In this document: piece after piece, positions 34,101 to 39,857 of the stretch
Layout of the letters: the number at the start of each line of letters is the position of its first letter
Position numbering within the stretch: position 1 is the stretch's first letter
The notes under the pieces: generated by a model
What the model saw: the letters and a program-made list of their open reading frames with translations, nothing else
Database searches by the model: none
Told to the model about the DNA's origin: nothing
Assembly (NCBI RefSeq): GCF_008039615.1
Contig: NZ_VDUZ01000032.1
Span: 1-64,000, forward strand
Direction of reading: 5' to 3'
Origin: Vineibacter terrae
GTDB lineage: Bacteria > Pseudomonadota > Alphaproteobacteria > Reyranellales > Reyranellaceae
DNA: 64,000 nucleotides
Made by a program: the position numbers and the translations under genes

Positions 34101-34309
34101 CGCCGCCGCCCTCGATCCAGGCGCTGATCGACGCGGTGCCGCGCGTAGCGGTCGCCGCGGCCGCGGCGCGCCTGGCGCTGTGGTACGGCACGCCGGTCGT
34201 GCCCACGGTCGAGGGCAAGTGGCGCATTCGCGGCTGCGCGCTGAGCGACGACGAGCTGGTCGACCGCTACCGGCTCAAATGCGCCCGCATCTGGCAGGGG
34301 ATCGGGTGA
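34097..34309 (+). CDS. Small phage protein of unknown function
   Basis: A 70-residue protein (MTPPPSIQALIDAVPRVAVA) placed before the primase; its stop overlaps the primase ATG. No domain recognised. Confidence 0.55.
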   Translation: MTPPPSIQALIDAVPRVAVAAAAARLALWYGTPVVPTVEGKWRIRGCALSDDELVDRYRLKCARIWQGIG

Positions 34310-35421
34310 TGCGCACCGACCGCCGATCCGAATACGCCGAACGCGCCGCGGCGGTACGCGAGCGGCTGCTGCCGTCCGAGGTGATCGGGCGAAGCGTCGC
34401 GCTGAAGCGGAAGGGACGCGACTTCGCCGGGCTGTGCCCGTTCCATGTCGAGAAGACACCGTCGTTTTGGGTGCTCAATGGCAAGCGCTTCTTCCATTGC
34501 TTCGGCTGCGGCTCGAACGGCGACGTGATCGACTTCGTGCAGCGCCACTACGGCAGGACGTTCGTCGAGGCGCTCGAGCTGCTCGAGGCTGAATCGGGTC
34601 TGCAGCGCCTGTCCACCATGACGGCGGCGCAGCGCGTGGAGCTGGATGAGGAGACGCGCGCGCGCCGCGCGGCACGCGAGGCGGCGGCACGGGAGGAGGC
34701 GGAGCGCAAGGCGCGCACGGTCAAGGGCATCGCGCGCGCGGTGCAGGCGATCGAGCGGGGCGGGCCGGTCGACCTGTACCTGCGCGGCCGCGCGCTGGTG
34801 CCGCCGGCGTCGTACGGCATCGGCGATCCCGACGTGAACGCCGGCTGGCCCACGGACCTCGGTTACCACCCGCGGGTCTGGCATCCCTATGCCCAGGCGC
34901 ACCATCCCGCGATGGTGGCGGCGATTCGTGGGCCGGACGGTGCGCTGTGGGCCGTGCACGTGACGTTCCTGGTGTTGGCCGACCGCGGCGCCTGGCTCAA
35001 GGCGGCGTTCACCGATCCGTCTTGGAGCAAGCTGGTGTTCGGCAGCTTCGCCCGGGACAGTGCCGTCAGCGACAACAGGATCGGCGGCTGCATCAGGCTG
35101 GGCGAGCCGGCCGAGGCGATGACGGGCGGCGAGGGCATCGAGACGACGCTCAGCTGCATGCAGATCTGGCGCCGCGCCGGCATCTGCTTCGTCAGTTCGG
35201 GCAACATGCCCAATGTCGATCTCCCATTCGGCTGCAGGGATTTCATCTACGGCGCCGACAAGGATGTCAGGCGCCAAGGCGAGCGGTGGGCCTGGCGCGC
35301 GGCGCAGCGCAACAGCCTGGCGCGCCGCGTCGTCGTGCAGGTGCCGCGCCTGCTCGATCTCAAGTGCGACTTCAACGATGTCGTGCGTCGCGCGGCCGCG
35401 ATGGAAGGCGAGGTGGCATGA
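34309..35421 (+). CDS. Phage DNA primase (CHC2 zinc finger plus Toprim-like domain)
   Basis: A 370-residue DnaG-type primase fragment. The CHC2 zinc finger has Cys43, His46, Cys64 and Cys67 (LCPFHVEKTPSF, then FHCFGCGSNGDVIDFV). A charged helix joins it to a Toprim-like domain with TGGEGIETTLS (catalytic Glu) and YGADKDVRRQG (Asp pair). It synthesises primers for phage replication, probably with the ATPase encoded at 36.9 kb. Start at 34309 overlaps the previous stop. Confidence 0.9.
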   Translation: MRTDRRSEYAERAAAVRERLLPSEVIGRSVALKRKGRDFAGLCPFHVEKTPSFWVLNGKRFFHCFGCGSNGDVIDFVQRHYGRTFVEALELLEAESGLQRLSTMTAAQRVELDEETRARRAAREAAAREEAERKARTVKGIARAVQAIERGGPVDLYLRGRALVPPASYGIGDPDVNAGWPTDLGYHPRVWHPYAQAHHPAMVAAIRGPDGALWAVHVTFLVLADRGAWLKAAFTDPSWSKLVFGSFARDSAVSDNRIGGCIRLGEPAEAMTGGEGIETTLSCMQIWRRAGICFVSSGNMPNVDLPFGCRDFIYGADKDVRRQGERWAWRAAQRNSLARRVVVQVPRLLDLKCDFNDVVRRAAAMEGEVA

Positions 35422-35674: not shown

Positions 35675-36061
35675 GTGGCGACACGAGAGGAAATCATCGC
35701 GGCCATCGAGACGGCCAAATGTCCATCGCACGAGCTCGATGAGCAGGTCGCGCGCCTTCTGGGCTGGACGCAACGGCGTGTCGGTCAGGTCGATGCCTGG
35801 TTTGATCTCGCGGGCCATATGCATGGCCGGCCGCCACTTTTCACCAAGAGCCTTGATGACGCAGCGCGTCTGATCCCGGTCGGCGCGTACTGGTTCGTCG
35901 GCGCGGGGAGGGAACAGCCTGGCGAGCCGCTCTATGGCGCCGTGATCATCGAGCCTGCCAGCGACCGCGAGATCGGCGGCGGCGAAACCGATGCCAGCGC
36001 CGCGTCGGCGCTGACCATTGCCGGCTTGAGGGCGCAGTGCCCGGCCACCACGCAGCACTAG
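35675..36061 (+). CDS. Phage protein of unknown function
   Basis: A 128-residue protein with a GTG start at 35675, preceded by GGAGG at 7 bases. The sequence (TREEIIAAIETAKCPSHELD, then WFDLAGHMHGRPPLFTKSLD and DAARLIPVGAYWFVG) resembles phage proteins that accept a class of short DUF with LGW and AxxLxP motifs, but no name can be given. It is convergent with and overlaps the nuclease gene by 4 bases. Confidence 0.6.
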   Translation: MATREEIIAAIETAKCPSHELDEQVARLLGWTQRRVGQVDAWFDLAGHMHGRPPLFTKSLDDAARLIPVGAYWFVGAGREQPGEPLYGAVIIEPASDREIGGGETDASAASALTIAGLRAQCPATTQH

Positions 36062-36579
36062 GGCGCCAGCCACGCGCGCCACAGGCCGCGCCGATCGGCG
36101 CGTGCCTGGCGCTCGGCGGCGACATAGGCCGTGCGGATCTCGAGCGATGCGTTGCGCCCCATCGCGAAGGTCGTGAACAGGTAGGCCTCGCCGGCCGACA
36201 GCATGGTCAGGCTGAGATCCGGCGTGGCGTCTGTCGCGCAGCGGGCCACGACGCGGCAGTACCTGTCCCATTCGATCGGACGACAGGTGATCGAGCCGGG
36301 AAGCAGGTCCTCGAGCGCGACGCGCGAGCGCATGCCGGCCGGGTTCTCCAGCTTCGAGCGCGCATCGCGCAGCTCGGGCGCCTGGATGCCCCACAGCCTG
36401 ACATCGGGCCAGCGCGTGCCGTCGGCGCGCAGCACCGCCAGCGTGTCCCCGTCGATGGCATGGGCCTCGCCGATCATGGAGGCGTCGGGCAGCGCGCCGC
36501 AGTCGCGGCCTGGCGGCGCGGCGGCCGACGACGTCGAGATCAGGGCGATGGTCGCGGCGGCGGTGAGGAGTTTTTTCAT
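36058..36579 (-). CDS. Secreted thermonuclease-family (SNase-like) protein
   Basis: A 173-residue protein with a signal peptide (MKKLLTAAATIALISTSSA, cleavage near residue 22) and a staphylococcal nuclease-like domain (AIDGDTLAVLRADGTRWPDV, RLWGIQAPELRD, AERQARADRRGLWRAW). The basic catalytic residues of micrococcal nuclease are not all obvious, so activity is uncertain. It runs against the surrounding early genes, suggesting its own promoter, as for lysogenic-conversion genes. Confidence 0.8.
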   Translation of the reverse strand: MKKLLTAAATIALISTSSAAAPPGRDCGALPDASMIGEAHAIDGDTLAVLRADGTRWPDVRLWGIQAPELRDARSKLENPAGMRSRVALEDLLPGSITCRPIEWDRYCRVVARCATDATPDLSLTMLSAGEAYLFTTFAMGRNASLEIRTAYVAAERQARADRRGLWRAWLAP

Positions 36580-36906: not shown

Positions 36907-38802
36907 GTGGCGGGGAGCAGCGACAACGATGGTGGCAAGAATGGCGCGGGACCGCCGCGCGACCCGCTCTATGCGCCCGACGATCTTGCGCAGCGATCGA
37001 CGCCGCCGCCGGACGACAAGGAACCGTCAGATGATCGGCGGTCGATGCGAACGGCAGATGGTGTGTGGTTCTACGACGGGGCGCCAGATCCATGCCCGGT
37101 CAGAGCGCTCGGATTTGACGACGGCGTGATGCATTTCATTTCGGCGCGCCACGAGTACCGCAAGGTGTCTTCATCGTCGTTGCCGCGTGTCGGGGTCATA
37201 GCCGAACTGTTCGGTGGCGATATGAGCTGGCCGATGCGCCACTTCTGGCGGCTACCGAAGCGCGGTGGTGGGGGCATCCCTGTGGACACCGAGGCGCTCG
37301 CGGTCGAATTGATCTGGATGTGCGGCCAAGCCGGCCAGTTCGACACGTCTATCGCCCTGCGGGGGCCAGGCGTGTGGGATGGGCCGGATGGCGTGCCGAT
37401 CGTGCATTGCGGCGACGTGCTGATCATCGGCGGGCGCCTGCAGCCGCCGGGCATGAAGATCGGGACGGCACTCTACAGGTCCTGGGCCGCGCAGCAGCGG
37501 CCGGCCACCGTGCGCGATGAGGCTGGCGTGCTGCGCTACGACCCGGCGTCCGCCGACGTCGGCCAGGCGCTCGTGACTGCGCTGGGCGAATGGCGTTGGT
37601 CCAACCCCAACACTGAACCGGAGCTGTTCGCCGGCGTCTTGGCCCACTCGATGCTGGGCAACGCCGTGCCGTGGCATTGTCATGTGTTCGTGCGGGCGCA
37701 GAGCGGCGCGGGAAAGTCCACCCTGCTGCGCCTCGCCGACGCGACACTTGGCGCCGGTTCGCACGGCGTGCTGAACAACGTAACGGCCGCCTACATCCAG
37801 TCGTCGCTATCGTTGCAGGCCCGGGCCATTTGCCTCGACGAGTATGAGAACGATACCGACGAAGAGCGACTGAGGCGGCTCACGGAAATGATCCGTCTCA
37901 TGAGCGACACGGACGGCGGTCGCGGCGGTCGTAGCTCCGGCGGCGGAGACACGCGCGAGATCCGGCTGAGTGGCTCGGTGATCATGGCGGCCACCATGCG
38001 CGAGGCGATGCGACCACAAGATCTCAACCGCATCACCATGTTGCGTGCGCTGAAGCTCTACGATCAGGCGCCGGCCGACGATACAGAAAAGGCCGAGCGT
38101 GCCGCGGCAGTCGAGCGTATCGCGGGTCTGATCGATGACTTTGGCCGGCATTCGCCCGCCTTGCGCGCCCGTATGGTCGGCAGCGTCGGCCTTTATCGCG
38201 AGAATGCGCGGCGCGCCCGCGCCACCCTGATCGGCTGGGGCACCTCGCAGCGTGACGCGACGCAGCTCGGTCACCTGGTGGCCGGCTTCTGGACCCTGAC
38301 GGGCGATGATCCGGCCGACGACGCGCTGTGCCAGGGCATGCGCAAGTACCTCGACCATCTTCCGGCGGCCGAAAGCGATGTCGACGACGACATGGACCCC
38401 GATGTGCGCGACTTGCTTAACGTCCTCTTCGCAACAGAAGACCACCTCACGTGGTCGGGCGGTTCCCGTCAGACGATCGGCCAGATCGTGGCCAGGGCCC
38501 GCGATGCGAAGGCGATCGACGCGCACCAAGCGCGCGAACGCCTGCCCCCTCTGGGGCTGCGGCTGATCAAGGGCGAGGACCACTGGGCATGGAGTGACGC
38601 TTGGCTTGCGGTCGCAAACACCAACAAGCACAAGGGCCTGCTGAAGATCTTCGAGGGTACGCCGTACCGGAACGGCAAGTGGGCGCAGGTCCTTGAGGAT
38701 TGGGCCGCGACGTCGGCGCATCCCCCATTGCAGTACGCTGGAGTGAAGTCGCGAGGGCGAAAGATCCCCTCCGAATACCTCCCAACGCTGGACGAAACAT
38801 GA
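36907..38802 (+). CDS. Phage replication ATPase/helicase-like protein (DUF927-type)
   Basis: A 631-residue protein with a Walker A motif AQSGAGKSTLLRL (about 258-270) and a Walker B-like AICLDEYEND (about 300). The layout, N-terminal domain, RecA-like ATPase and C-terminal winged-helix-like region, resembles phage DUF927/primase-associated helicases. With the primase it probably forms the replication machinery. GTG at 36907 is the assumed start (GGTGAGGGATC before it). The repeat array begins just beyond its stop. Confidence 0.75.
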   Translation: MAGSSDNDGGKNGAGPPRDPLYAPDDLAQRSTPPPDDKEPSDDRRSMRTADGVWFYDGAPDPCPVRALGFDDGVMHFISARHEYRKVSSSSLPRVGVIAELFGGDMSWPMRHFWRLPKRGGGGIPVDTEALAVELIWMCGQAGQFDTSIALRGPGVWDGPDGVPIVHCGDVLIIGGRLQPPGMKIGTALYRSWAAQQRPATVRDEAGVLRYDPASADVGQALVTALGEWRWSNPNTEPELFAGVLAHSMLGNAVPWHCHVFVRAQSGAGKSTLLRLADATLGAGSHGVLNNVTAAYIQSSLSLQARAICLDEYENDTDEERLRRLTEMIRLMSDTDGGRGGRSSGGGDTREIRLSGSVIMAATMREAMRPQDLNRITMLRALKLYDQAPADDTEKAERAAAVERIAGLIDDFGRHSPALRARMVGSVGLYRENARRARATLIGWGTSQRDATQLGHLVAGFWTLTGDDPADDALCQGMRKYLDHLPAAESDVDDDMDPDVRDLLNVLFATEDHLTWSGGSRQTIGQIVARARDAKAIDAHQARERLPPLGLRLIKGEDHWAWSDAWLAVANTNKHKGLLKIFEGTPYRNGKWAQVLEDWAATSAHPPLQYAGVKSRGRKIPSEYLPTLDET

Positions 38803-38808
38803 CCGGCC

Positions 38809-39057
38809 GGAACGCTCGTTCCGACGCCGTTCCGGCATCCGTTCCGGCCCAACCCTTTGTGCTGCGGCCCTTTTTCCCCGGATCGGAACGCCGGAACGCC
38901 ATTCGGCCATCGCCATCACAGGCATGTGTGTGCGTGCGCGCGTGTGCTGCACACAGTCAAGAATAGCGTTCCACCGTTCCGATTCATCGTTTTAGTAAGG
39001 AGAGTCAAATGGGTAAGACCGGAACGAGTGCTGGAACGGTGTCGGAACGGGCGTTCC
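38809..39057. repeat. Array of 12 CGTTCC/GGAACG hexamers
   Basis: In 249 bases there are six GGAACG (38809, 38885, 38893, 39021, 39033, 39044) and six CGTTCC (38817, 38828, 38840, 38967, 38975, 39052), mostly in pairs 8 to 12 bases apart. By chance about 0.1 would be expected. The array spans the gap between the replication ATPase and the next regulator and continues into that gene's first codons. It looks like an iteron-type replication origin or regulator-binding array. Confidence 0.75.
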
Positions 39058-39857
39058 GGGTGACACGAGACGCGATGTATCGATGGATCCGCCGTCTCTA
39101 TGGCGACGATCACGAGTCCTGGCTGGCGAGCAATGCTCGTCGCTACCGCGCGGCGCTCGCCCGGGCACAGCGCCGGGAGGCAGAGCGCGAAGCAATGTAT
39201 GCCGAGATCCGGCGCGTCTATGGTCGCGGCGACGACGGTGCGCATCTGGTGCAGCGCGTGGTCGATGCGCGTCGGGCCGAGCTGGCTCGCACGAAGCAGA
39301 CCCGCAAGCAGATGGCGGCCGCGGTGTGCAAGGTCGAGGCCAAGCGGGCACAGGACACGATCGACCTGCTGCACCGACGTGGCCAGATCGACGGGCGGCA
39401 GCAGCTGGCTGGCCTGTCCTATCGGCAGTGGTGGAATGACTGCGGCGGCTCGATGCCGTGCGCGCTCGACCAGTCGCGCATCGGCTCGGGCAGCGCCGAT
39501 GGGCGCTCGCCAACGATGGCGCAGCTGCTAGCGGCAGAACGGCTGCGCGATGCCGCCCGTATCCTCGGTCTGATGGATGAGCGGATCGTGCGGCTTGTTG
39601 TGGTCGAGGGCCACACGATCGAGGACGTGGCACGGATGCTGTTCGGTCACGACGGACAGGTGAAGCGCGCGGACGCCCTGCATGCGGGTCAACGCCTCCG
39701 GCTCGCGCTCGATGCGTTGGCCGAGCATTGGTTTCCTCGGGGCCGTGGCTTCATGCGAGGCGATGAGGTCGATCGATCGGAGCAGACTGTGCAGCCTGGC
39801 GTGGTCGAGCCGGCGCGCGTCGTTCACGCCACGGCACGTCGCATCCACGTTGGTTGA
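39009..39857 (+). CDS. Probable late-gene regulator with HTH segment
   Basis: A 282-residue, highly basic protein placed last in the early rightward region, before a terminator and the late operon, where lambda has Q. The C-terminal half (LAAERLRDAARILGLMDERI, VRLVVVEGHTIEDVARMLFG) resembles the HTH of sigma-like or DUF6456-type alphaproteobacterial regulators. TAAGGAGAG lies upstream of ATG 39009. Role is inferred from position and HTH. Confidence 0.55.
   Translation: MGKTGTSAGTVSERAFRVTRDAMYRWIRRLYGDDHESWLASNARRYRAALARAQRREAEREAMYAEIRRVYGRGDDGAHLVQRVVDARRAELARTKQTRKQMAAAVCKVEAKRAQDTIDLLHRRGQIDGRQQLAGLSYRQWWNDCGGSMPCALDQSRIGSGSADGRSPTMAQLLAAERLRDAARILGLMDERIVRLVVVEGHTIEDVARMLFGHDGQVKRADALHAGQRLRLALDALAEHWFPRGRGFMRGDEVDRSEQTVQPGVVEPARVVHATARRIHVG

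Follow-up and report, generated by a model that had tools for sequence, protein, structure and literature searches.

In PICIs, the origin of replication lies immediately 3' of rep and consists of two sets of iterons placed around an AT-rich region, the iterons being specific to each element (PMC6092414). In SaPIs, the C-terminal domain of Rep binds the downstream iterons, apparently as two hexamers, and the DUF927 protein Cch is related to the Rep of SaPIbov1; similarly, the C-terminal domain of Cch2 was found to bind in vitro short direct repeats located downstream of its own gene (PMC7581432). The origin of pRN1 is a conserved stem-loop of 100 nt, located just 3' of an SF3 helicase gene, that is required (PMC4234260).

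We describe here a locus that probably belongs among such systems. In the window, i.e., the whole stretch of 64,000 nucleotides of Vineibacter terrae DNA that was analysed, a dense array of the hexamer CGTTCC/GGAACG starts 7 bp past the stop (38802) of an AAA+ helicase gene and ends inside the open reading frame starting at 39009. As judged from sequence comparisons, this array is very probably the replication origin of a tailed prophage of about 47 kb, of the P4 and PICI/SaPI type, bound by the winged helix of the helicase. It holds 12 exact hexamers within 249 bp, six on each strand, whereas 2000 dinucleotide shuffles of the same 249 bp yielded 0.39 copies on average and never more than 4. 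No other hexamer of the window reached 12 copies per 250 bp, the runner-up being CGCGGC with 11, and shuffled windows gave 7-10. Over the whole window, 47 copies of CGTTCC/GGAACG were observed for 41 expected, so that the enrichment is confined locally to the array. The initial annotation had reported this density of 12 copies in 249 bases, six per orientation, as well as the placement of the array right after a replication ATPase gene and into the next coding sequence; both counts and coordinates were reproduced. What it had overlooked is the symmetry of the array. Indeed, written as start-to-start distances in bp (> for CGTTCC, < for GGAACG), the sites read < 8 > 11 > 12 > 45 < 8 < 74 > 8 > 46 < 12 < 11 < 8 >, a near-exact mirror image with its centre near 38933, in which 6/6 pairs of sites are mirrored about one centre; none of 2000 position shuffles was as good. 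The sites thus form two inverted halves, and in each half an outer group looks towards an inner one over ~40 bp.

Table 1. The array and the genes around it, with positions given in the window.
Feature	Position	Strand	Details
Primase, partner in the replication module	34303..35421	+	DnaG-type zinc ribbon, DUF7146, Toprim_3; start approximate
AAA+ replicative helicase, proposed initiator	36907..38802	+	631 aa; phrog_21086, E 1e-81; MCM/Cch/D5-like fold
Part of the helicase gene coding for the C-terminal winged helix	38602..38784	+	residues ~566-626; putative recognition helix 591-599, wing 608-620; proposed site-binding domain
Hexamer starts	38809, 38817, 38828, 38840, 38885, 38893, 38967, 38975, 39021, 39033, 39044, 39052		six per strand
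Left outer site group	38809..38845		GGAACG 38809 (-); CGTTCC 38817, 38828, 38840 (+); > 11 > 12 > triplet and one inverted outermost site
Left gap between facing groups	38846..38884		39 bp, 36% AT
Left inner site pair	38885..38898	-	GGAACG 38885 and 38893, 8 bp apart
Central alternating purine-pyrimidine tract	38922..38947		GCATGTGTGTGCGTGCGCGCGTGTGC; 26 bp; Z-DNA-prone
Right inner site pair	38967..38980	+	CGTTCC 38967 and 38975
Right gap, candidate DNA unwinding element	38981..39020		40 bp, 60% AT vs 33% for the locus
Right outer site group	39021..39057		GGAACG 39021, 39033, 39044 (-); CGTTCC 39052 (+); within the first 17 codons of the 39009 gene
Downstream gene, phrog_21451-like	39009..39857	+	start overlaps the right arm; not a likely binder
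Small terminase (TerS)	40306		
Large terminase (TerL)	40986		
Portal	43153		
S49 protease	44705		

The carrier of the array is a tailed prophage of ~47 kb. The region is identical to an IMG/VR viral contig of 47,208 bp that extends, by offset, from ~17.8 kb of the window to just beyond its end. Homologues of the region occur in other genomes of the same family, matching Reyranella/Enhydrobacter MAGs. Between the primase and helicase genes, a nuclease with an SNase domain (PF00565, E 2e-9) and a signal-peptide-like N-terminus is encoded on the opposite strand (36058-36579, -), and homologues of it are found at the equivalent place in loci L045, L048, L051, L052, and L054. On the other side of the array, the 39009 gene harbors an imperfect direct repeat of 38 nt (39066-39103 and 39186-39223, 120 bp apart) encoding the repeated peptide RDAMYRWIRRLYGD / REAMYAEIRRVYGR.

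Since the right gap (38981-39020) contains a Shine-Dalgarno-like AAGGAG and the ATG of the 39009 gene, the right outer sites are coding. This overlap bears on the second suggestion of the initial annotation, namely that the array is bound by the product of this gene. Such binding could serve autoregulation or the control of late genes, and sites of the right arm, lying at the gene start, could repress the gene; however, the 21 relative loci compared, the majority of them with the array retained, gave no homologue of it (E<1e-3), and neither the mirror symmetry nor a left arm 200 bp upstream is necessary for autoregulation. As the array persists in relatives without the gene, binding by the gene product is unsupported, and we abandon this suggestion as most improbable.

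The helicase, with its predicted C-terminal winged helix, is a better candidate for binding the sites than the 39009 product. Structures had to be compared because a search of the PDB by the helicase sequence gave no match. An AlphaFold2 model, built from 14 sequences (mean pLDDT 78), comprises an AAA+ core together with a winged helix at the C-terminus. Its top match with Foldseek was the SCCmec Cch (5dgk), followed by the poxvirus D5/E5, and VIA-align gave a Z of 15.7 to an MCM and of 15.6 to 5dgk, the VIA-align matches spanning mainly residues 150-488. By its fold, the protein thus resembles Cch, D5 and MCM helicases and agrees with the initiators of the PICI/SaPI type, the DNA binding of its winged helix being putative.

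The same architecture, of 3+3 / 3+3 sites, recurs in about 35 further phages and prophages, in Alphaproteobacteria and elsewhere, just 3' of a gene for a homologous AAA+ helicase. The conservation of spacing among related prophages, proposed earlier as a check, is thereby observed, since the mirrored geometry recurs in them with differing words. The consensus layout is >11>12>~45<8/9<8/9<~60>8/9>8/9>~45<12<11<, and the fullest form exhibits three outer and three inner sites per half, i.e., 12 in total. Five family-level relatives, with helicases 28-41% identical, present the same spacing at the equivalent place with the words GTAAC, TGTCCC, GTTAC (twice) or GTACC, and a search throughout the class and in viral contigs added GTAACC, GTTAGG, GTAGC, GTCTC, GTCTA, GTTGGA, and GTCAC. 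Words thus differ by lineage (GTTCC, GTAAC, GTCCC, GTACC, GTTAG, GTCTC, GTTGG, and others), and about 14 motifs are set on one geometry, an element-specific iteron word in a maintained organisation being also the rule in the PICI/SaPI type. Further arrays are seen in Bdellovibrio phage phi1422, with the word GTTACC and a variant layout (inner pair oppositely oriented, 64-bp gap), and in Synechococcus phage MinM1, with a related array of the word TGTGAG; no origin is marked in the annotation of the regions examined in these two phages.

When 24 loci were pooled, neighbouring sites on the same strand were 8/9 bp apart in 55/123 cases and 11/12 bp apart in 45/123, and facing groups were separated by 41-46 bp (n = 23) or, with one inner site missing, by 53 bp (n = 7). 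Scores for site clusters were, in most relatives, well over those of every other window of their own locus. Where sites are degenerate or spacings shifted, strict P-values for the mirror are weak, and the case is therefore built on the recurring spacings and not on each locus taken singly. The array stands 0.7-3 kb off the helicase stop in L019, L024-L026, L059, and L069, and it was not found in the sequence examined for several distant helicase relatives (PHB04-type myophages, Bordetella PY223, L012, and L014). Two further repeat clusters were noticed. In L028, 10 AAAATTTT palindromes replace the non-palindromic word in about 430 bp, in the first 500 bp or so after the helicase stop. In Serratia phage MQ-4 (L059:6700-7130), 16 GTAAC sites are clustered about 1.6 kb beyond the 3' end of the primase-helicase gene, possibly as an unannotated origin.

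A reverse search relied on the word alone and used no protein. The 18-base pattern of the window's own triplet, CGTTCC-N5-CGTTCC-N6-CGTTCC, retrieved 37 loci from viral contigs, of which about 13 carry a complete mirrored array, such as L080 (> 11 > 12 > 44 < 9 < 9 < 59 > 9 > 9 > 44 < 12 < 10 <), and a second, half-array pattern retrieved 6 loci from viral contigs. Both a mirrored array and a helicase homologue were detected in 10 loci (L109 being cut at its end), and in all of them the helicase gene is directly followed, on its 3' side, by the array. Since these helicases fall into two clades that are far apart (L009-like, 28-31% identical, and L025-like, 43-46%), the CGTTCC word arose or spread more than once. 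In L079 and L080, the sequence starts or stops near the array, so that the helicase gene may be cut off, and no helicase homologue was found in L092. In the window, in most relatives and in the reverse-search loci in which a helicase was detected, the array is thus adjacent to the 3' end of the gene for the proposed initiator helicase, as in the PICI/SaPI type. The remainder of the 37 loci retrieved with the triplet are other repeats. The same word was also seen in tandem runs with a period of 6 bp (up to about 10 in a row), not mirrored, in L089:13638-13839, L081:1196-1348, and L102:9327-9479, which are possibly telomere-like or another iteron type, and as direct repeats each 11-12 bp on one strand only in L103, L104, and L105, a different iteron arrangement.

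In the window and in several relatives, the array is located between the replication and the packaging genes, about 1.2 kb from TerS, as would be expected of a cos/pac site for DNA packaging to which the small terminase (40306) binds, and the cosB of lambda also has repeated sites, for gpNu1. The array is, however, not inherited together with the terminase genes: its geometry is kept where the terminase was swapped (TerL 27-30% identical in L048/L051/L052/L054), and L045/L047/L056 use other words in spite of a TerL 68-71% identical to that of the window. A mirror-symmetric site moreover gives no packaging direction, and we consider a packaging function very unlikely. Clustered short sites in both orientations are likewise typical of partition (centromere-like) and transcription-control arrays, which would play no role in the start of replication; such a function seems very improbable for an array that follows the helicase gene across phages, with a spacing similar to that of PICIs and P4 and with an AT-rich gap.

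This gap is the helicase-distal one. It is AT-rich in 24/24 loci tested (52-83% AT, vs 30-39% locus-wide), with a mean AT excess of +0.33 for the right gap, as compared to +0.14 for the left gap and +0.02 for the centre (24 loci), and constitutes a candidate melting site. In the window, the right inner and outer groups stand on either side of this stretch of 60% AT, in the manner of the PICI/SaPI type. The centre is occupied, in most loci tested, by an alternating purine-pyrimidine run of 14-30 bp, mostly CG/TG-rich and Z-DNA-prone; that of the window measures 26 bp, whereas control windows taken from this locus contain no run longer than 11. The tract is common and not universal, being short in L076, L078, L099, L008, and L009 and replaced by AT-rich DNA in phi1422. 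GC skew, taken as an origin marker, presents no switch at the array.

An array with mirrored arms could also fold, over all its 253 bp, into one long stem-loop and act as a structured hairpin of RNA or DNA. The strand folds at -153 kcal/mol (z -10.6), and the pRN1 origin is precisely a stem-loop just 3' of an SF3 helicase gene (PMC4234260). Yet mirrored positions outside the sites are complementary in 27-52% of cases (26/75 in the window), which is close to chance for the composition in most loci; it is hexamers rather than stems that have been maintained, and a stem would not require set distances such as 45 bp. A stem-loop origin of the pRN1 type was thus rejected, complementarity outside the sites being near chance in most loci, and a hairpin of any kind seems very improbable.

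The reading as a phage replication origin with iterons, put forward in the initial annotation, is on the contrary strengthened: the array accompanies the helicase gene across many phages, and it appears to combine the organisation of PICI/SaPI and P4 origins with an AT-rich candidate melting site. In the mechanism that we propose for this origin, the C-terminal winged helix of the 631-aa helicase would bind each GTNNC-type site, and the six sites of each arm would nucleate one helicase hexamer on each half. Melting would begin in the AT-rich gap 38981-39020, perhaps with the help of the central tract absorbing supercoil strain, and the zinc-ribbon/Toprim primase (34303) would then prime both forks. 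The site word and the winged helix would change together between lineages, and the spacing would be kept because it is fixed by the protein complex. Motif-residue co-evolution in the helicase C-terminus was not demonstrated, since within- and between-motif identities differ equally in all helicase regions, pairs sharing a motif being more alike in every region; by eye, variation is greatest at the two positions following the W that is conserved in the putative recognition helix, and no residue-to-motif code emerged.

A layout constant in dozens of related viruses with a lineage-specific word suggests an origin type that keeps its geometry while lock and key change. A broader proposal, tentative and rather doubtful, is that of a class of phage origins whose rigid 6+6 mirrored plan would load two MCM-like hexamers, whose central Z-DNA-forming tract would aid opening by absorbing supercoil strain or marking the junction of the hexamers, and whose word would have switched many times, creating replication-incompatibility types. 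The array, read as an origin of the P4 and PICI/SaPI type, would itself provide a countable and alignable signature by which origins, mostly unannotated, could be recognised in a wide range of proteobacterial phages and prophages. With 12 sites in two inverted sets of six beside a helicase resembling MCM, it would allow the placement and opening of two hexamers at a self-loading phage origin to be tested directly, and the constant geometry with changing words would be a natural experiment on the co-evolution of initiators and sites, predicting which phages cannot fire each other's origins.

Among known systems, the PICI/SaPI Rep-ori module (SaPIbov1, EcCICFT073) shares with the array, a probable origin, the position immediately 3' of a helicase-initiator gene and a DUF927-type helicase, and the right half of the array fits the published PICI origin, with two facing iteron sets around an AT-rich stretch (PMC6092414). 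Unlike PICIs and SaPIs, the array adds a second, inverted half with a Z-DNA-like tract between the halves, its carrier is a complete tailed prophage and not a satellite, and the primase is separate and of the DnaG/Toprim type. SCCmec Cch (5dgk) is the best fold match, and repeats are also found downstream of the Cch2 gene, but these are only three iterons, without a mirror array (PMC7581432). In the crenarchaeal plasmid pRN1, the origin similarly lies just 3' of an SF3 helicase-primase gene with a winged helix, and the layout is kept while the sequence diverges, whereas a stem-loop stands there in place of a site array (PMC4234260). In P4, crr is located directly 3' of alpha and contains 8-bp TGTTCAC-type repeats, of which the type-1 repeats are spaced +9 +43 -, with facing groups 43 bp apart, similar to the ~43-bp facing gap of the array. 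P4 alpha fuses a zinc ribbon, Toprim_3 and a D5-type helicase, parts that are split here into primase and helicase; in sequence, it is linked to our helicase only by a short match around the P-loop. Unlike the array prophage, P4 needs two separate regions (crr and ori1), and the half-units of crr are in direct (120-bp) repeat, whereas they are inverted here. As read from the sequence, what is new compared to known origins of the P4 and PICI type is the putative pair of inverted twin half-origins and their Z-like centre.
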